From positions 1 through 13,849 of the forward strand of contig JAJBTS010000218.1 of assembly GCA_020860885.1 (NCBI GenBank): 13,849 nt of DNA. Direction: 5' to 3'. This document shows, in pieces, positions 2,549 through 13,849 of this stretch; the first letter of the stretch is position 1; every line of letters starts with the position of its first letter. Under the pieces are notes generated by a model, which saw only the letters and a list, made by a program, of their open reading frames with translations, ran no database searches and had not been told where the DNA came from. The DNA is from Bacteroidales bacterium (GTDB taxonomy: Bacteria > Bacteroidota > Bacteroidia > Bacteroidales > Azobacteroidaceae). The position numbers and the translations under genes are program-made.

Positions 2549-4150
2549 TTATTTTGTTTTCATGGAAGGAACCAGAGGAGCCTTCTTGAAATTATCGATT
2601 CTATCGCTTTGAAGCTGCATCTCTTCAAACAAGATAGCTGTAGGAGTAATCACCGTCAGCAAGTTTCCTGCAAAGGTATTGTAGATAAGTTCATCGTCAG
2701 AAACAGCAACAATTTTCTTAAAGATCTGGGAATCGATATTGTTGATAGTAGCAGACCGGACGCGTTCTTCGCTTCCGTCCATATTCACTTTATACAATTC
2801 TGTAGGATAGCTTCCGCCACCGGCTACATCCCGTACAATATAAGCGTAGTCATAACCTTCCTCTTTCGCACGCTCCAACAATTCCTTTTTCAATTCCTCG
2901 TGTTTTTTCGTACGTGTATCCGACAAACGAACAACGCCTGTATTCAAACTTCCCGAAAGGTTCGCATTAAACAAGGAATGTCCGTTGGAATGAGGTACTT
3001 TCGGAGTCGGGATACGATCGCTTAGCAGCGTTTTAAGAATTCCCTTCTCAACCAGAGTAATTTTTTCAGGAGGAACAACTCCTTGTGCATCGATCGGAGC
3101 ATAACCGATCAGCTTCACTCCTTTGTATTCTTTTGTTCCGGTCATATCCTCTATAGTGATCTCCCGGGCAGTAATACGTTTGTCCATCATTTCTTCGATA
3201 GAATTTCCTCCGTAAGAGAACCCGCTTGAACTAAGAGGTTTTCTGGAAGCCACCAATGAGATATCACCTCCCCAGAAGAAATTGGTATAGAATGTTCCAG
3301 TCACTGCTTTATTCTCGAACAACACAGGGCCCGAATAAGATTCTTTCAGCTTAGGAGCTTTGATATCTTCAATAAGGCTGGCGGCCAGTTTCCTACATTC
3401 TTCTTTCAAAGCATCTACCGAAGGAAGTTCATCCGCGCGGGCAAATACATGGTCAAAACTGGCGTCTATATCTTCACCTTCTTCCGTTTTACCCGACACA
3501 GATCCGTTCATGAATATGAAGGATAGCGGATAAATAAATTCTGTTCCCTCCGTATTGTAGAAATAAGCAGTTCCATCTACTAATTGCATAGATACACTGG
3601 AATCGAATATTTCATTGTAGTCGTTAAATACGGAAGAAGCTGCTTTCACGTATTCTTCGTATTTATTTCTGTCAAAATCAAGAGGTTGACGGGGAAGATC
3701 TTTCATAACCACAACCGGAGTTTTGTCCCAGTCGGGCAATTCCAATTCTTCAGCGGGGATATTCAATTGCTTAATAGTTGCTATTTTCTGCTCATACGTT
3801 TCGGCTGCACTTTTGTAAATTGCATCCAGATCTTTCCATATAGTCGTCCTGATTGCTTTTATATCATTTTCTAAGGTAGGAGAACCATCGTAATAGCCGC
3901 CGGTACTACCTGAACCCTGGAAATTTTCATCCGTACATTGGTAGTCTCCTATCAGCAAACGGGAACCGGAAGATCTTCCGTGATTGATGTTGGATCCCAA
4001 CAAGCTCCCATGAGAAGCAGCTACGGTCATTTGTTTCATATCTCCAATGGTGTAACCAATAAAGAAAGGAGATTGCAATCCATCCATCTTCAGGCCCTGA
4101 AGAGCCCGGTTCACTTCATCCTTTATGGCTTTGAGTATAATTTCATCTCC
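2549..4150 (-). other. Second, degenerate TldD-like unit (TldE-like half) of the protease
   Basis: This is the coding part for residues ~572-1104 of the restored protein. It repeats the order of elements of the first half (an N-terminal region ending in TYEQ, then a beta-rich core with HSNGH and DVAGG) and has about the same length. Every zinc-binding position that can be judged is lost: no HExxxH and no C-terminal Cys (NTFAGNLLTVITP replaces the FNGICGAESG region). This is the pattern of TldE/PmbA relative to TldD, so the role is likely structural or substrate-binding. The link between halves (SQTQPPLLPKPEINASNPNA) is Pro- and Asn-rich, like a flexible interdomain linker. Confidence 0.75.
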
Positions 4151-5864
4151 GGAAGCGTTCGGGTTCGACGCGTTAATTTCAGGCTTCGGTAATAAGGGAG
4201 GCTGAGTCTGGCTCTTGGCTCTTTTCTGCGTTTCTATTTGTTTTACAAATAAGGCAGGAGACACACAAGCTACAGGAACACTTCCTGATTCAGCGCCACA
4301 TATACCATTAAAAACAGCATAATCGTTACTGCAAGCTTCTATTTGTGAAAACATTGCAAGCGGTGTTCCTACCAAATTGACTCCACGCACCAATTCATCC
4401 GGTCTGCCATCGACGTAAACCCGGTAAACAACCAACGGAGTTACATTAAATGAATTGGGAGAATAACGGCTCGTAGTAGTAAATCCACCCGCTACGTCTT
4501 TGAAATAGTAAGCATATTCTTTTCCCTGGTCTTTTGCCTCTTTCCGTAATTTCTTCATTAAATCTTCGTGCGAAAACTTCTGGGTACTTTCTATAAACAT
4601 ATTCGACTGGCGAGATATGGGACTATTTCCGACAGAAGATCTGCCATGTCCGTTGGAATGAAGGAAACCTTCAATCGGCGTACGGCTCATTAAAAAGTTT
4701 TTGAGCACCCCGTTTTTCACAACTTCGACTTTTTGCGCCTTTATCCCTTCATCGTCAAAAGCATAGGCTCCCGCCAAAGGAGTGGTTTGAAAATATTTCT
4801 GAGTAGGATCAAAAGTTACGGATAAGTGTTTCGGCAGAACGGTTTCTCCTACTTTCTTTTTAAAAGTCTGTGCATCGGTTTCCTGTTTCAGGCGTGAGCC
4901 TTCCACCCGGTGTCCGAAAATTTCATGGAAGAAGACTCCCGAAGCTGCAGGAGAAAGAATAGCTGGTCCTGTGAAGGATTCTACCACAGGAGCTTTCTTT
5001 AATGCAGAAAGCATAGAACTCATTTCTTCTGCGGCCTTTATCACTACTTCATCCGACGGCAATTCATCGGCAGAAAAAGCCATCCAGGACTTGGAAAGAG
5101 GTAAATACATCCCGTCATCTGCTAAAACATTAGCCGTTAAGAACAACTGTATATTCACTGTATTCTGGGCCATTTCCCTTCCTTCCGTATCGATGAATAT
5201 CCTTCTGTTGAGAGAGGCGACAATGTATGCCGAACCATCTCTTATTTCATCGTTTTTATCAAATACAGCCGAATACTTCCTTACTTTCTCTTCCAAAGCT
5301 TTTGGGTTCAGGTTTAAGTCTTTCCAAAGAACCGGATTCTCATAATAATTCTCTACCTTTTCTATGGAGAAATCGGGAGACTTATCTTCCTGTTCTACTT
5401 TGACAGCCATATTGGCTTTCACCTGCTCGTAGGTTTTGAACCCCTTCTTTATATAGATCGTCCAGCAACAACCAGATATTATTTTTTATAATTCTTGTAT
5501 TATCTTCGTAAGGAATATAACTTCCTCTCACGCTGATACCCTGCGATCCTCCCCAACCGGATTCGCGGATCTCATGAGAATTATCTAAATTATTGTCGCC
5601 TACCCGCAATCCTATCGACATAACACGGTTAGGCGAATTTAATATCGCCTCCGACTGCAACTTTCCAAGGCTTGCCGCTGTTGTAATAGCTTGCATTTCA
5701 TCCAGCCGCACAAACCCATAATAAGCGGGTACGGTTTGTTGTTTCAATACTTCAAAGTTTCGATTCAATTCTGTTTTTACTGTGTTAAAGACTGGATCTT
5801 GAGCATAAATGAAAATTGTTCCAAACAGCAGGAACAAAATAGAGGGCCAAATACGTTTATTCAT
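2549..5864 (-). CDS. Secreted TldD/PmbA-family metalloprotease, duplicated TldD-TldE-like single chain, frameshifted
   Basis: The gene starts at the ATG at 5864 with a Sec signal peptide (MNKRIWPSILFLLFGTIFIYA, cleavage before Q22). With one G removed from the run at 5441-5444 it encodes 1104 residues. Residues ~22-545 form a TldD-like half with the zinc motif HEIFGH at 313-318 and the FNGIC region whose Cys522 matches the third zinc ligand of TldD. Residues ~570-1104 are a second copy: AAASLGKL at 63-70 parallels VAASHGSL, TYEQ recurs at 144-147 and 689-692, HSNGH at 402 and 958, DVAGG at 456 and 1012. In that copy the zinc motif is replaced by sequence around YTNFFWGG (~859-866) and the Cys is gone. 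In characterised systems TldD is the active and TldE the inactive partner of a heterodimer that cleaves small unfolded peptides, including leader peptides. The inference is a pseudo-heterodimer in one chain, exported to the periplasm or cell surface. As written, the frameshift separates the first 141 residues (signal peptide plus the start of the TldD domain) from the rest; a GTG restart at 5422 would give a 957-residue product without export signal. Confidence 0.88.
4910..4927 (-). other. HEIFGH zinc-binding active site of the TldD half
   Basis: The codons CAT GAA ATT TTC GGA CAC on the minus strand encode HEIFGH, followed by RVEGSR. HExxxH is the zinc-binding and catalytic motif of TldD proteins, with one more residue between the ligands than in gluzincins (HExxH). 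It occurs only in the first of the two halves. Confidence 0.9.
5441..5444 (-). other. G4 run: frameshift point of the secreted protease gene
   Basis: On the coding strand the run is GGGG (CCCC on plus). With three G the frame reads LDDLYKEGFKTYEQVKANMA, joining the signal-peptide frame to the long protease frame. The second half of the same protein has LDAIYKSAAETYEQ at the equivalent place, with the same four residues between YK and TYEQ, so the one-base correction is independently supported by the internal repeat. Confidence 0.85.
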
Positions 5865-5974: not shown

Positions 5975-8900
5975 ATGAAACGCTGTTTTTTAATTTTCGT
6001 TACACTAATTTTTATGAGTCCTATTTATTCCCAATATTCAACTCAATGGAAGGAAGTTGAATCGTTCGAAAAACAATCCTTACCGAAATCTGCATTGGAA
6101 GTCGTAGATCAGATTTATCAGGATGCACTGAAGAATAATAATAGTGCCGAGCTGATTAAATCTATTATTTATCAGCTAAAATTCGAAACATCGATCGACA
6201 AGAATAAATTACCGGAAATGATCCGGGAAATAAAATCATTCACCGAAAAAAGCCGGAATAAAACGGAGCAGGCTGTGCTTTACTCTGTATTGGCAAATGT
6301 ATATAAATTGTATTACGATAACTATTCTTATTCAATAAGGCGAAGAACAGCGATAACCGGGTTTGTTCCTGAGGATATCCGGGAATGGCCCGCAAACCTT
6401 TTTATTCAAAAAATATCTGATTTGGTCGATCTATCCGTACTTCCAGCGAAAGAATTACAAAATACTCCGGCTTCAGAATACGAAAAAATCCTTATTGAAG
6501 GGGAAACCTCCAGGAGCTTACGGCCTACTCTCTATGATTTTCTTGTTCACGAAGGAATAGGGATTTTATCTGCATTAAACAGCGATTATCTGATACAAAG
6601 CTTTTTTGAACAATCTCCTTTAACGGATCAAAGATATTTTGCTCCTGTCAATGAATTTATTCAGTTATCTATTCCTCAGCAGGAATATAATTTCTCAACA
6701 AAAATTCTATCCTTATTCCAGCAATTACTTCAATTCAGAAATCAAGACCCGAACCATCCGGCTTTGCTGATAGCGGACCTGGACCGATTGGATTTTGTAA
6801 AGGACAATTATCAGGGAGAATCTCTCAGCCTACTTTATCTGAATGCTCTGGAAGACTTAAAGAATAAATACAATTCTTCGGATTACGTCGTGGAGGTTTT
6901 ATTTAGGGAGGCTTCCTATTATACTATTCCTCGTAATTCGAATGACGAAGAAAGTCAAAAAGAAAATCTACATAAGGCTTATGAAATCTTAAAAAAAGGA
7001 ATAGATCAATATCCTCATTACGAACGGATAGGATTGTTGAAAAACCTTTTAACTCAAATCACACAAAGCAATTTGACCGCAACTGCCAAAGACGTAGTTT
7101 ATCCGGGACAGGATCTTTGCTTACAACTCAATTATAAAAATTTGACCCGGATACATGTCGAAATCTACAAAATAGATGCACCTATCGCTTCTTATAAAGA
7201 TTACTGGGATAGAACAGGAAAATATAAGAAAGAGGGTAAACTGGTGAAAAAAGAAACAATAGATTTAACCAATAATTATCCTTACATATCTTCCGATACA
7301 ACTATTAAGCTCCCAATGGAGGACTTAGGCAATTATGAATATGTAATCAAAGTGGATAAATCGACAGCATATCCTGCTAACAAACAGTTCTCTGTTAGCC
7401 GGTTGGCCAGTATATCCAGATCCATAAACAATCAAAGAGAATTTCTGGTTACAGACAGAATGTCGGGCACACCTATTGAAGGGGCACAAGTCCGTTTATA
7501 CAAAAGGAAAAGCAACAATACCCTGGAATTATATAAAACCGTTGTTACGGATGTTATGGGTCTGGCTACAGAAAACGGAGAAAAAGATATTGCCTTTTAT
7601 AATATTGTAGCGGGTGATGATAAAGACCTTACCATTTCACCGGTTCCCTGGATTTCCAACTATAACAATAATAGGGAACAAAATGCTATAGCGGTAACTT
7701 TATTTACAGACAGAAGTATTTATCGCCCGGGGCAAACGGTTTATTTCAAAGGTATTTCTTATCAAAAGCAAAACAACCGGACCGCCGTTCTTCCTAATAA
7801 GACTTATAATGTATCTTTCAGGGATGCAAATAATAAAGAAATATCCAATAAAAGCATGACTACGAATGAATTCGGTTCTTTTGCGGGTGAATTTGTTATT
7901 CCACAAGGCTTATTAACGGGAAGATACACCATTCGGACGGATGCCGATAATGGCTCTATTCCTATAAGGGTAGAAGAATATAAACGCCCTACGTTCGACA
8001 TAAAATTCGATGAAAATGATAAAACCTACAATCTGGGAGATAGTATCCATGTAACCGGAAGTACGAAAACTTTCTCCGGAGTTAACTTGCAGGAGATACC
8101 GGTAAAATATAAAATCACAAGAAAAAACCACTGGCTGTACAGAGGTCCTTTTTACTCTTCCGTACAAATAGCACAAGGAGAAGTACAAACGGATACTAAT
8201 GGAAATTTCAAAATTTCTTTTACTGCAGAAAAATCTTTCGATGACCGAAACAATCCCAATGTATTTTATACGTATACCATTGAAGCCACAGTTACGAGCA
8301 CGAACGGTGAAACACAAACCTCCAATACTTACCTGAGTATTGGAGAAAAATCTATGTATCTTTCTTTGGATGGCCTTCAAGATATTGTAGATAAAAATAA
8401 TATCCCCGACATTAAAATCAATTCGTTGAATCTGAACAATAAAAAAGTCGATACATCAGGAACTTTCGAAATCTATCGGTTGGATATAAAAAATAAAGAT
8501 AAATGGGAAGACGATCCGGAGAACTGGACGGTTAATAGATCGGTTTTATCCGGAAACTTCACATCGGGAGAAACTCTGGATAAAGGAAAAATAGCGAACT
8601 TACCTTCCGGCAGATATAGGATAATTGCTAAAGCGAAAGATTTACAAAACAGGGAAATTGAAACCCAGCAGGATTTTACTTTAGCTTCAACAAAGGACAA
8701 ACAACCTCCTGTTCCGACTTATAAATGGGTAATGACTCCTAAAATTAATTGTTTACCCGGAGAAAAAGCAGAAATTATTCTGGGAAGTTCGGTAAAAGAA
8801 GTGTATGTATTGTACGAAATATTTAAGGATAATAAGAAATTATCAGCTTCCCGTTTTGTATTGAATAATGAAAACAGAAAAATAGAAATACCTTATCTTG

Positions 8901-11866
8901 AATCTTATGGAGAAGGTATTACTGTAACTTTTACGTATGTAAAAGATGAAAAATTCTTTACAGAAAATATTGAGGTCAGGAGGAAACAGGAAGATAAATC
9001 ATTAAATCTAACGATGGCAGTGTTTCGCGACCGACTTCTTCCCGGACAGCAGGAAGAATGGAAAATATCCGTTAAAGATACAGAAAACAATCAAGTTCTG
9101 GCGGAAGTATTGGCCGGGATGTACGATGCTTCCCTGGATAAAATATACACCCACTCATGGAGATTTAATCCTGTGAGGGTTTCTTCATTATGGAGTGTTT
9201 CAAATAGTGTGGGATCGGAATTTAACACTTCTACCAGTTGGTTGAATAACGGAAAAAAATACATAACAGTGCCTGACTTTGAATATGATTCTTTCAATTG
9301 GTTCGGTTTTGGACCGGGGATGGATCAACTATTATATGGATATGCAACAGGAGGCTCTGGAAATCTCTCATCAAGAAAAAACAGTATGGTACAAGAAGAA
9401 GGTATTGAAATTGCCGATCTGGAAGATAGCCAGGCTTATATTTCTGTTGTTGAAGTAGTTGTTACTCAGAAGAAGACAGTCAGAGACGGTAGTTTTACCA
9501 TACCTGAATCTTCCACTGAATCAGAGATGAAGGAAAGCGGAAGTGAAGTGCAAATTCGCCAGAATTTCAACGAAACAGCTTTCTTCTACCCTCAGTTAAA
9601 AACAAATGAAGCGGGTGAAACCATCCTCTCCTTTACCGTCCCTGAAAGCAACACAACCTGGAAGTTTATGGCTTTGGCTCATACAAAAGATCTGAAATTC
9701 GGTCAACTCGTAAAAGAAGCGATCAGTCAGAAAAAACTTATGGTTGCTCCGAATGTTCCGCGATTTATCCGTACAGGAGACAGAATGACTCTCTCAGCTA
9801 ATATTTCCAATTTATCGGAAGAGAGTATTTCCGGTTCGGTGTATATTGAGTTTTTAGATCCTTCCAATAACCAACCGCAGATAGAAGTAAAAGATGTATC
9901 TAAGACGTTTGCTGTGGAACCCGGTAAAACAACTTCCGTGAACTGGTCGTTCGAAGTTCCTTCGGGAATCGATCTGACTACCTTCAAGATCGTAGCCCAA
10001 TCTGCAACTTTCAGCGATGGAGAACAGCATTTAATCCCTGTTCTTCCTAACCGTATTATGGTTACGGAAAGTATGCCTCTGAATGTGACCGGTAACCAAC
10101 AGAAGGAATATACTTTTGAGAAGTTAGCAAATCCGTCACCCTCTTTAGAGAATTATCGCCTTACACTGGAATTTGCAAGCAATCCCACGTGGTATGCTGT
10201 TCAGGCATTGCCTTCTATCACGACCCCTCAAAATGAAAACGTTTTATCCTGGTTCGGAGCCTATTATTCAAACGTTATGGCAACTAATATTGCAAACAGC
10301 ACACCGAAGATCAAACAGATCATTGATGCATGGACGAAACAAGGAGAAAATAAAGAAACGCTGTTATCGAATCTGGAGAAAAATCAGGACTTAAAAAATG
10401 TATTGCTTGAAGAAACTCCCTGGGTGATGGAAGCAGAGGACGAGACATCGCAACAACAACGTTTATCTTTGTTATTTGATCTGAACAGGGCAGCCAATCT
10501 AAACAATCAGGCATTGGATAAACTGAAAGCACTTCAGGCTTTCGATGGAGGCTGGTCCTGGTTCAAAAACATGAATAGTGATGTATCTATCACTCAATGG
10601 ATATTATACGGAATGGGAGAATTATCGCAATGGAACGGAAATAAGAATCCGGATAACATAGCAGGCATGCGAAACTCAGCCATCGGTTTTATTGACAATG
10701 CTTTTATCCGTCATTACGAAGATCTTAAGAAGAACAATAAAGATTGGAAAAAGCTCAAAACGGTCTCTACCTATGAACTGGAATATTTGTTCGTCAGATC
10801 CTATTATAAGAACATTGATCCGATAGGAACAGGCGAAGCTGTTGAATTCTACTCCAATCTTTTGAAGAATTACTGGGCAAACTCTACCCGCTTGTACGAT
10901 CGGGCTCTTGCAGCCATCGTTTTACAGAGAAACGGAAATACGGCTATTGCCAAAAACATTCTGAAATCTTTATCGGAACATGCGACTCATGATCCGGAAC
11001 TAGGCATGTATTGGGCAAACAATAATACCTATTCATTCATGACACAAAGTGCTACGTGTGTGCATACATTTATTATGCAAGCTTTCAAAGAAGTAGGGGC
11101 TACGGCACAAGAAATGGATGAAATGAAACTTTGGTTACTGAAACAAAAACAAACCCAGATGTGGGAAAGCGTTCCCGCAACGGTTGCTTCGATCAATATT
11201 CTACTGAATACGGGATCGGATTGGTTGAGCAATACTGGAAATGTTGAAATCAAATTAGGCAAGCAGACCATAGACTCGAAGGACGCCGTAGCCGGAACCG
11301 GTTATATCAAAAAAACATACGACGCTTCTTCTATTCAAAAAAATATGGCAAATGTGAAAGTAAATAAATCGGATAATGGTCCTGCATGGGGGGCTCTTTA
11401 CTGGCAGTATTTTGAAGACCTGGATAAGATTAACGATGCGAAAACCGATTTGAATGTTCAGAAAGAAATTTATAAAGAACAAACAACGGCTAACGGAAAA
11501 ACGTTAGTTCCTGTCTCAGAAAACAGTCCTTTGAAAGTCGGGGATAAAGTCACCATAAGATTAACCATCCGTACAAACCGGGATATGGAATTTGTTCATT
11601 TGAAAGATATGCGGGCATCTTGTTTTGAATTAACAGAGCAACTATCCGGTAATCAATGGAGTCAGGGATTGATCTACTATCAGGCACCTAAAGATGCCTC
11701 TATGAATTTCTATTTTCATGCAATGCCCAAAGGTACGTATGTGTTAGAATACAATTTATACGCTTCGGCTTCCGGAAACTATTCCAATGGAATAGCTACT
11801 ATACAATGTTTGTATGCTCCTGAGTATATCTCCCATACCCCCGGCGGACGTGTAAATGTAGAATGA
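5975..11866 (+). CDS. Secreted alpha-2-macroglobulin-family protein lacking the thioester
   Basis: This complete protein of 1963 residues has a Sec signal peptide (MKRCFLIFVTLIFMSPIYS, cleavage before Q20); there is no lipobox Cys. The N-terminal ~450 residues are the family's helical/MG1-like region. FTDRSIYRPGQTVYFKG (577-593) marks MG2, VEEYKRPTFDI (666-676) the following MG domain, and NETAFFYPQL (1199-1208) the alpha-2-macroglobulin core domain. The helical thioester-type domain begins around 1400 (WYAVQALP) and includes FDGGWSWF (1523-1530). A receptor-binding-like beta domain ends in YAPEYISHTPGGRVNVE. At the thioester position, where active relatives have CxEQ, this protein has NVLS (1422-1425), so covalent trapping is impossible. 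Family knowledge: bacterial members are envelope proteins thought to trap proteases; thioester-less ones are less understood. Residues ~1120-1198, low-complexity and Ser/Gly/Glu-rich, are a candidate bait segment. The start is chosen for the signal peptide; the leader is A-rich without Shine-Dalgarno. No pbpC partner is adjacent. Confidence 0.93.
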   Translation: MKRCFLIFVTLIFMSPIYSQYSTQWKEVESFEKQSLPKSALEVVDQIYQDALKNNNSAELIKSIIYQLKFETSIDKNKLPEMIREIKSFTEKSRNKTEQAVLYSVLANVYKLYYDNYSYSIRRRTAITGFVPEDIREWPANLFIQKISDLVDLSVLPAKELQNTPASEYEKILIEGETSRSLRPTLYDFLVHEGIGILSALNSDYLIQSFFEQSPLTDQRYFAPVNEFIQLSIPQQEYNFSTKILSLFQQLLQFRNQDPNHPALLIADLDRLDFVKDNYQGESLSLLYLNALEDLKNKYNSSDYVVEVLFREASYYTIPRNSNDEESQKENLHKAYEILKKGIDQYPHYERIGLLKNLLTQITQSNLTATAKDVVYPGQDLCLQLNYKNLTRIHVEIYKIDAPIASYKDYWDRTGKYKKEGKLVKKETIDLTNNYPYISSDTTIKLPMEDLGNYEYVIKVDKSTAYPANKQFSVSRLASISRSINNQREFLVTDRMSGTPIEGAQVRLYKRKSNNTLELYKTVVTDVMGLATENGEKDIAFYNIVAGDDKDLTISPVPWISNYNNNREQNAIAVTLFTDRSIYRPGQTVYFKGISYQKQNNRTAVLPNKTYNVSFRDANNKEISNKSMTTNEFGSFAGEFVIPQGLLTGRYTIRTDADNGSIPIRVEEYKRPTFDIKFDENDKTYNLGDSIHVTGSTKTFSGVNLQEIPVKYKITRKNHWLYRGPFYSSVQIAQGEVQTDTNGNFKISFTAEKSFDDRNNPNVFYTYTIEATVTSTNGETQTSNTYLSIGEKSMYLSLDGLQDIVDKNNIPDIKINSLNLNNKKVDTSGTFEIYRLDIKNKDKWEDDPENWTVNRSVLSGNFTSGETLDKGKIANLPSGRYRIIAKAKDLQNREIETQQDFTLASTKDKQPPVPTYKWVMTPKINCLPGEKAEIILGSSVKEVYVLYEIFKDNKKLSASRFVLNNENRKIEIPYLESYGEGITVTFTYVKDEKFFTENIEVRRKQEDKSLNLTMAVFRDRLLPGQQEEWKISVKDTENNQVLAEVLAGMYDASLDKIYTHSWRFNPVRVSSLWSVSNSVGSEFNTSTSWLNNGKKYITVPDFEYDSFNWFGFGPGMDQLLYGYATGGSGNLSSRKNSMVQEEGIEIADLEDSQAYISVVEVVVTQKKTVRDGSFTIPESSTESEMKESGSEVQIRQNFNETAFFYPQLKTNEAGETILSFTVPESNTTWKFMALAHTKDLKFGQLVKEAISQKKLMVAPNVPRFIRTGDRMTLSANISNLSEESISGSVYIEFLDPSNNQPQIEVKDVSKTFAVEPGKTTSVNWSFEVPSGIDLTTFKIVAQSATFSDGEQHLIPVLPNRIMVTESMPLNVTGNQQKEYTFEKLANPSPSLENYRLTLEFASNPTWYAVQALPSITTPQNENVLSWFGAYYSNVMATNIANSTPKIKQIIDAWTKQGENKETLLSNLEKNQDLKNVLLEETPWVMEAEDETSQQQRLSLLFDLNRAANLNNQALDKLKALQAFDGGWSWFKNMNSDVSITQWILYGMGELSQWNGNKNPDNIAGMRNSAIGFIDNAFIRHYEDLKKNNKDWKKLKTVSTYELEYLFVRSYYKNIDPIGTGEAVEFYSNLLKNYWANSTRLYDRALAAIVLQRNGNTAIAKNILKSLSEHATHDPELGMYWANNNTYSFMTQSATCVHTFIMQAFKEVGATAQEMDEMKLWLLKQKQTQMWESVPATVASINILLNTGSDWLSNTGNVEIKLGKQTIDSKDAVAGTGYIKKTYDASSIQKNMANVKVNKSDNGPAWGALYWQYFEDLDKINDAKTDLNVQKEIYKEQTTANGKTLVPVSENSPLKVGDKVTIRLTIRTNRDMEFVHLKDMRASCFELTEQLSGNQWSQGLIYYQAPKDASMNFYFHAMPKGTYVLEYNLYASASGNYSNGIATIQCLYAPEYISHTPGGRVNVE

Positions 11867-11940: not shown

Positions 11941-13849
11941 TTATCTAAGATCAAATGCTATTTTGAAACCGACCGAGTCAAACTTCCACTTATTAAGGGA
12001 AAAGAAAATTCCCATATTTCCTAAAAAATTACCTACTCCGTATCCGATTTCGGTATAAGAAGGAAGAACAGGTGTATATAGTTGACTAACATAAATTCTT
12101 TCCTGTAGAACGTCGCGAATGGTGATTCCCTTAAATAATTGCAATAAAAAGAACGGAGATTCATACATAAAATGTGCCTGATAATAGGAGTTGGCAGCAT
12201 TGTACCAATCGCCGCGAAGCAAGTGAAAAATCCCTCCTATCGGATCGTTCCAGGATTCAGGAATATTTCTTTTTCGGAATTTCTTAAAATCGGCAAAATA
12301 GATCGACCGTGTATTGGTAAACCAACCGGCTCCGATATAATAATGAAGAGACTGCATCAAACCCAGGGGAATCTTTTGTTGGATATCTACTTCAATCCTT
12401 TCATAATCACTATTACTCCGAAAGATTCCTTTAATTCCTCTTGCATATTCCGCAGAAACGGTAGGAAATTTGGAATTAAGGTATTCTTTCCGGGTCCCAT
12501 TGAATCGGTAATACTGTCCGGGAGTCCATCTTAATCCGACCACAGGAGAAAATGCGCGGTACTGATCTGAGACCAAATCCTGAAGATCTTCATCCATTCC
12601 GGCCTTCAAATGAAATTTACTATTTTCTCCGTTTACAGGCATATACCAGTTGTAGTCTACTCCTCCATACATTAAAAGACCATTGGTTAATTCATAGCTG
12701 GATTTTACCTCCAAACGGTAATGCCTGAAATAGTCAATATTAAAATCATCGAAATTGATACTATCAGGAATAATCTCATTAATTTTTTCTAAGGTTTTTG
12801 AATTAAACGACTGATTGCTATTACCGACAGAAACATTTAAAGATCCAAATTTTGCAGGAGCAAAGATCCATTCGGCAGGAACATTAAAATAGATTTCATC
12901 TTTCTGAAGGAGAAATCCTATATCCGGTCTGAACTGAAAGATTTGTCCGTTCTTAAAATCTTTCGTTAACCGGAATTGTTGCCAATATACAACTCCATCT
13001 ATCTTAGAATAAGAAAATTTCAATGGATTAATTAATCCCGAATAAATAAGCTGGGTATTATTATAATGGAGCTTTTGAGAAAAAAATATTCCCCGGGAAT
13101 AATTCCAGGTTCTCTTTCCTGAATTCTCATTGGCTATGGAATCTGCCTCGTGCTGTATTCGTAATTGTGCTTCATACAACGTTTCTTCATGATCAGAAAG
13201 GGGTATGGGGCGTTTCTTATTCCAAAACAATGAATCCCGGATGATGGGTAAAGAATCCCTGGCTGCATTAAAATAGTCACTCAGATCGTAAGATAATATT
13301 TTCTCTTTTTCTCGCCAGTCATTCAGTTTAACCGATTCGTACTGAAATAAAGCATGATATGTATTAATTACCTCATTTCCCAATAAATTCAGATGAAAAG
13401 TCAGGCTCGATTTTATAGGTAATAAAAAGTTTTCACTAGGCAATCCGAATTCAGTCTGGATATAAAAATCCGAAAGTTCTATCCTTCCTTTCAAATCTAT
13501 CTTTGAGATGATCCACATATTATCCACTATATGGAAATAACCGGAAACAAGTTGCTGGCTTTGCCGCTTAGGAATGATCTCAATCTGATGTATTTGGTAT
13601 CCGAGAGAATCTGTCGATCCCATGTATTCAAATTGATAATACTTAAATAAATTTTTCTTGTTGGGTAATAGAATCTGATCGTCAAATACGATCGGATTGT
13701 ATATGTTTACATTCAGGAAAGGCATGACACGATCTAAGATATCTTCGGCTTTGACCTCTACCCCATTCAAATCCTTTATCTCCTGAGTATAAAAACTGGG
13801 AGCCGTATAACAAACATCGACTATCGATTCAACAAAAGAATTAACGTTT
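11941..13849 (-). CDS. DUF5686-family outer-membrane protein, C-terminal part (start outside window)
   Basis: The minus frame is open to the window edge, so the 635 visible residues are the C-terminal part; the TTG at 13770 is internal, not a start. The pattern fits DUF5686, a Bacteroidota family that normally has a signal peptide and a carboxypeptidase-regulatory-like domain before the part seen here (perhaps about 200 residues missing). Recognisable stretches are LNGVEVKAEDILDRVMPFLN near the visible N-terminus, SIYFADFKKFRKRNIPESWN, YNAANSYYQAHFMYESPFFL, and a C-terminal YTEIGYGVGNFLGNMGIFFS. The last ~330 residues alternate polar and hydrophobic residues as in an outer-membrane beta-barrel. 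Function is not established for the family; barrel biogenesis or surface display have been proposed by similarity to surface antigens. The gene converges on the macroglobulin gene with 74 bp between stops. Nothing in the visible part is broken. Confidence 0.85.
   Translation of the reverse strand, partial: NVNSFVESIVDVCYTAPSFYTQEIKDLNGVEVKAEDILDRVMPFLNVNIYNPIVFDDQILLPNKKNLFKYYQFEYMGSTDSLGYQIHQIEIIPKRQSQQLVSGYFHIVDNMWIISKIDLKGRIELSDFYIQTEFGLPSENFLLPIKSSLTFHLNLLGNEVINTYHALFQYESVKLNDWREKEKILSYDLSDYFNAARDSLPIIRDSLFWNKKRPIPLSDHEETLYEAQLRIQHEADSIANENSGKRTWNYSRGIFFSQKLHYNNTQLIYSGLINPLKFSYSKIDGVVYWQQFRLTKDFKNGQIFQFRPDIGFLLQKDEIYFNVPAEWIFAPAKFGSLNVSVGNSNQSFNSKTLEKINEIIPDSINFDDFNIDYFRHYRLEVKSSYELTNGLLMYGGVDYNWYMPVNGENSKFHLKAGMDEDLQDLVSDQYRAFSPVVGLRWTPGQYYRFNGTRKEYLNSKFPTVSAEYARGIKGIFRSNSDYERIEVDIQQKIPLGLMQSLHYYIGAGWFTNTRSIYFADFKKFRKRNIPESWNDPIGGIFHLLRGDWYNAANSYYQAHFMYESPFFLLQLFKGITIRDVLQERIYVSQLYTPVLPSYTEIGYGVGNFLGNMGIFFSLNKWKFDSVGFKIAFDLR

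Follow-up and report, generated by a model that had tools for sequence, protein, structure and literature searches.

The window that we analysed, a stretch of 13,849 nucleotides from a Bacteroidales bacterium, carries on its minus strand at positions 2549–5864 a single gene whose frames encode two TldD-fold copies of ~540 residues each behind a Sec-type signal. We consider it likely that the product (in intact relatives) is a zinc peptidase with the TldD/TldE fold that is exported as one chain, in which a dead second half completes the shell, and that the two halves are a paralogue pair separate from TldD/TldE. The family and the fold are already known, and fused entries exist in databases under generic names. 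In the literature that we searched, with coverage that was partial and weak for subscription journals, neither a fused nor an exported TldD-type protease was described, nor a separate origin of its dead half.

As assembled, the gene consists of two overlapping frames on the minus strand, and the window encodes no single chain of this peptidase. The upstream frame (5864..5382, 160 aa) holds the signal peptide and the start of the active half, and aligns to residues 1–142 of the intact relative P0002 with 64% identity. The downstream frame (5422..2549, 957 aa) holds the remaining active half and the entire dead half, and aligns to P0002 residues 147–1100 with 80% identity. Given this coverage of P0002, the reading frame is broken once, with no second discontinuity, and the break falls within the overlap of the two frames (5382..5422), a region that is open in relatives. 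Either an assembly error or a recent lesion could account for it. The first-pass annotation, which placed the gene and its strand correctly, had itself presumed a restored protein. Intact forms of ~1100 aa are abundant, with 114 of the 119 best listed relatives (P0002–P0120) at least 1050 aa long. The 18 named loci come for the most part from MAGs, in records of Bacteroidia, Dysgonamonadaceae, Candidatus Symbiothrix and Candidatus Azobacteroides, the last two being associates of termite-gut protists.

The repetition of one fold within a single polypeptide, as first proposed from shared landmarks, was borne out by profile and pairwise comparisons. In the window, PF19289 (C-terminal domain) exceeded its cut-off of 22 bits in both halves, with 115 bits in the first and 36.8 in the second. 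The halves of P0002 matched each other by BLASTP (E 9e-30, 514 columns, 23% identity), and profiles of the two halves aligned in hhalign with an E of 3e-110 over 506 columns, so that the internal repeat is far above chance. The landmarks themselves were located in the window frames, on the minus strand: HSNGH from 4660 in copy one and from 2992 in copy two, DVAGG from 4498 and from 2830, and TYEQ from 3799 in copy two, its counterpart in copy one falling at the frame break. The Pfam search detected PF01523 (domain 1), which the first-pass annotation had named for an HMM check, neither in the first half nor in the second, and PF19290 (domain 2) scored 19.6 bits in the 957-aa frame, under its cut-off of 20.9; a precomputed PF19290 match is present in some relatives, for example P0028. 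The domain 1 and 2 regions without a Pfam match over cut-off are still covered by the structural match to the TldD fold, which spans the whole subunit.

Only the first copy retains the residues of a zinc site. The motif HEIFGH (4910..4927, minus strand) supplies two putative zinc-binding His and the catalytic Glu of the active half, and its H, E, G and H are invariant in 143/143 aligned fusions; the Cys of CGAESG (4283..4300, minus strand), the equivalent of E. coli TldD Cys454 and the predicted third zinc ligand, is likewise present in 143/143. Both are gone from copy two, where hhalign of the P0002 halves places GTFYTNFFWG (3269..3298, minus strand) opposite the HEIFGH region. The dead half, including the linker, occupies 2552..4225 on the minus strand, and Pfam, the fold match and the trees described below identify it as a TldD/TldE fold without zinc ligands. 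Alignment A1 comprised 23 of the 119 listed relatives of the window gene and all 120 listed relatives of the fusion in genome G086; alignment A2 comprised 117 of 120 listed relatives and the window's half, with the short P0297, P0318 and P0354 left out. Among the sequences of the tree set, in which the zinc Cys was scored by motif, HEXXGH occurs in the first subunit of 24/24 fused and 22/22 split forms and in none of the 24 fused second halves or 22 split C subunits, and the looser HExxxH occurs in 1/46 second halves and C subunits. We also considered a second zinc site elsewhere in copy two and rejected it: HExxxH is found in only 4 of 234 second halves, at P0002 position 752 (three) or 1054 (one), and none lies at the equivalent site near 854–862. 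Among the listed split C matches, HExxxH is found at residue 457 in 1/120. Thus, as the first-pass annotation had anticipated, no functional zinc site was found in the second halves.

To judge the fold of the second half, we predicted its structure alone, because the first half dominated the structural matches of the full-length model. Foldseek matched the isolated half to the TldD/TldE fold, with TldE chains ranked slightly above TldD. The full-length model (pTM 0.89) suggests that the two halves are held in a fixed mutual arrangement. A quick 118-row tree places first and second halves together, separated by a long branch (SH-aLRT 100) from TldD and TldE, and a careful tree of 42 rows gave the same split with support of 100/100. 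We tried placing the second half with TldE by descent and rejected it: forcing that clade costs 110.5 log-likelihood units (p-AU 0.00019). The second half has the TldD/TldE fold and, like TldE, no zinc site; its first-pass identification as TldE is not supported. Both trees require at least two changes of zinc state; they are unrooted, they sample TldD/TldE in Bacteroidota and E. coli alone, TldD does not form one group, and the letter make-up of some rows deviates from that of the alignment. Attraction among fast-evolving rows would be expected to draw the second halves to TldE, contrary to the tree observed. The 118-row tree took 22 of the 24 split loci (L077 and L083 out), 22 listed P proteins plus L085 and L086 as fused rows, and, for six class-level Tat arrays, a single pair per array (L098 and L099 out); the ordinary pair of L111 is not among its rows. 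Judged by the tree, the active/dead pair arose here separately from the TldD/TldE event. For that event, Ghilarov and co-authors assume, in the part of their paper available to us (PMC5810440), that TldE is a copy of TldD with a lost catalytic centre.

These results bear on three other explanations. The first-pass annotation had read the gene as a plain fusion of ordinary TldD and TldE genes with an acquired signal peptide; since the AU test rejects a clade of second halves and TldE, we regard this as quite improbable. The product might instead be exported but without proteolytic activity, its fold serving for binding or for another hydrolysis. The site of the E. coli TldD clamp tether, Lys456, is Ala in 142/143 fusions (site equivalence being taken from the alignment) and the site of Asp272 carries His or Ser in 137/143, so that the cleft is altered and unlike that of TldD; moreover, a review title cited in PMC10885120, a source seen in part, names N-deacetylases of the TldD/TldE family. 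Invariance of all three zinc ligands and of the catalytic Glu across the 143 fusions nevertheless speaks against this reading, and we think a non-proteolytic role unlikely, if a little less so than the plain fusion.

The explanation that retains most weight among the three concerns the source strain alone, and is compatible with an exported peptidase in intact relatives: the gene may be a decaying pseudogene, functionless in that strain. Its frame is discontinuous once, and the product of this frame-broken copy may be absent there. Yet the frame is otherwise open, with the 957-aa frame as similar to an intact relative as stated above, frames of at least 1087 aa are found in 29 of the 32 family genomes that have the gene, and a lone break in a draft assembly of 438 contigs may be an assembly error. 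On balance we doubt that it is a pseudogene.

We surveyed genomes for fused and split forms of this system. Within the family of the source genome, the gene is present in 32/45 genomes and is always a single frame, the frames shorter than 1087 aa being those of G138 (1031 aa), the source genome G000 (978 aa) and G152 (830 aa). An ordinary TldD/TldE pair is also present in 16/45, occurs alone in 9, and both systems are missing from 4. At the level of the order, 24/198 genomes have the system, 3 as a fusion (G000, G122, G338) and 21 as split-type frames of 401–628 aa. The C subunit adjoins the N subunit in 18/18 split loci from 17 of these 21 genomes, a count that omits G317, G208, G244 and G206 and includes one of the three N copies of G184. 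In that genome the active exported subunit occurs three times, with one listed match to the dead partner, and G162 has two weak matches in frames of 722 and 349 aa. In the phylum sample, 10/118 genomes have the system, 2 fused (G000, G086) and 8 split-type, with adjacent N and C genes in 6/6 loci examined of the 8; G023 has two matches on different contigs. All 120 listed relatives of the G086 fusion are 1071–1190 aa long. A class-level search with the fusion alignment matched 6/198 genomes, three of them (G220, G325, G265) weakly and in TldD/TldE-sized frames. G505 carries a fusion of 1086 aa, and in G494 (L119:1689-5093) the N and C genes share one reading frame, parted by a single stop and a few bases, the C subunit keeping its own signal peptide. 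This arrangement is close to a fusion.

Across split loci, the N-to-C spacing is −14 to 120 bases in 22/24 (L081 and L088 are outside the count). The fused/split label changes 6 times per half on the 118-row tree, with at least 5 changes on starred branches of the quick tree, indicating that on the tree the two forms have interchanged at least five times, whichever the direction. Distances among N subunits and among C subunits are correlated (0.895, 46 pairs), so that the pair has evolved together, whether joined or separate. The fusion that the first-pass annotation proposed as the arrangement is therefore the rule in the family, in all 32 genomes with the gene, but is too narrow a description, since split exported pairs are usual in the order sample and fusions recur.

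The Sec-type signal proposed ahead of the copies is visible at the start of the window frame (5802..5864, minus strand), as MNKRIWPSILFLLFGTIFIYA followed by QDP, with the cleavage site between them inferred by eye. By a hydrophobicity rule, which is crude and differs from a proper signal-peptide predictor, 207 of the 226 fusions beginning with Met are signal-bearing (19 fail), as are 22/22 split N and 20/22 split C subunits, the two misses being over-long start choices. Under the same rule the controls E. coli TldD and TldE are negative, and 2/13 TldD and 1/13 TldE rows are positive. The fusion junction resembles a full N-subunit tail followed by the start of a mature C subunit. In the window the linker between the halves (4148..4225, minus strand) has this make-up, with no internal signal and low pLDDT, and a hydrophobic stretch near the junction occurs in 10/226 fusions. 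The product is thus predicted to be exported. For its location, the first-pass annotation had offered the periplasm or the cell surface. The periplasm is the simpler reading; the surface is unsupported, as the Pfam search, taken to an E of 10, listed no C-terminal sorting tail (filters drop weak matches) and no lipobox Cys was present in residues 1–130 of the upstream frame. A lipobox-like start occurs in 3/226 fusions.

The source genome has an ordinary TldD/TldE pair besides the fusion. In many Bacteroidota, the ordinary TldD starts with a Tat-type twin-arginine motif and its partner TldE does not (L102–L106, L093–L100, L121–L140), so that the premise that TldD and TldE are cytoplasmic is not general in this phylum. 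A Tat motif on TldD alone suggests, from sequence, that the folded pair may be exported with TldE as a hitch-hiker. In the source's own family, the motif is present in TldD of 16/22 informative genomes (14/19 fetched, plus G122 and G126; the source genome is without), and the uncounted ones among the 25 family genomes with an ordinary TldD are G128 and G129, cut by contig ends, and G140. TldD of the source genome (L101:89-1489) has no Tat motif, and TatC was not found in that genome, which is 92% complete. We considered whether the Tat signal and TatC were lost together and set this aside, the correspondence being imperfect across the family. In class-level relatives, the tandem arrays L093 and L094 each combine three TldD genes of Tat type with two or three TldE genes, and in G126 (locus L111) an ordinary pair lies within about 10 kb of an exported fusion on one contig.

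Upstream of the peptidase gene and divergent from it, sharing the upstream region, the window carries a gene for a 1963-aa bacterial alpha-2-macroglobulin-like (A2M) protein without a CxEQ thioester motif (5975–11866). Among the 17 other loci of its own clade that extend upstream by at least about 2 kb, and considering frames of at least 150 aa only, an A2M gene is directly divergent in 7 (L009, L011, L014, L016, L020, L021, L110), lies 2.3 kb away in L019 and 4.6 kb away in L008, and was not found in the other 8. We rejected the neighbourhood as a clue to function: A2M adjacency is too patchy, and these loci are all close kin. A DUF5686 protein gene at 11941–13848, which runs past the window end, is outside the finding.

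The closest known system is E. coli TldD/TldE (PDB 5nj5 and kin), the family classed as MEROPS M103 (PMC10885120, seen in part), in which TldD binds metal through HExxxH and Cys residues that TldE lacks (PMC5810440, accessible text). The two systems are alike in the fold of both halves and in having HExxxH and a remote Cys in one copy only, the other being dead. They differ in that E. coli has two chains and the protein described here is one chain with a Sec-type signal, whose second half is of separate descent and which has no Lys456 tether and no detected PF01523. The split exported Bacteroidota pair (L067–L084, L087–L092, L119) has these two subunits as well, in matching order, encoded by two genes that usually carry a signal peptide apiece rather than by one fused gene. 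Database entries of ~1100 aa named 'metallopeptidase TldD-related protein' (for example P0154, P0159, P0185, P0230) have the same fused anatomy and are more distant, with 30–37% identity to P0002; their labels, taken as given, name Gammaproteobacteria, Gemmatimonadales and Vicinamibacterales MAGs. Bacteroides thetaiotaomicron 1vpb is an ordinary TldE, a lone unfused subunit (so named in the consulted part of PMC5810440).

By analogy with TldD/E, the protein is most likely a periplasmic zinc peptidase that acts on unfolded peptides from within one chain. For TldD/E, the proposal is that a narrow channel admits unfolded polypeptides and that short peptides are clipped off their N-termini (PMC5810440, in the text available). 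Here, the first half would bind zinc through HEXXGH and Cys and do the cutting, the second half would close the shell around the active site, and unfolded peptides would be threaded into the inner chamber and shortened from their N-termini in the periplasm. Covalent linkage would set a 1:1 ratio of the halves, and the substrates may be peptides of failed exported proteins or of food protein. The pair would have come from a duplication within an exported TldD-like lineage, apart from the TldD/TldE event. It exists also as two adjacent genes, usually with a Sec-type signal on each, and the fused and split states have been swapped repeatedly. Taken as a whole, we lean towards a second, independently arisen design of TldD/TldE type, in which an exported lineage copied its own TldD-like peptidase, one copy died and became the partner, and repeated welding into one chain gave a periplasmic chamber that clips unfolded peptides.

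If this is right, TldD-type proteolysis would be placed in the cell envelope, for which we found no description in the literature searched. The natural single-chain form may be easier than a heterodimer to express and mutate, and the recurrent switches between the split and the fused state would serve as replicates for study of the passage from heterodimer to single chain. A single fold family would, on at least two occasions, have formed a closed-chamber peptidase by loss of catalysis in one copy, and the role of the dead partner would therefore be open to test on two separate cases.
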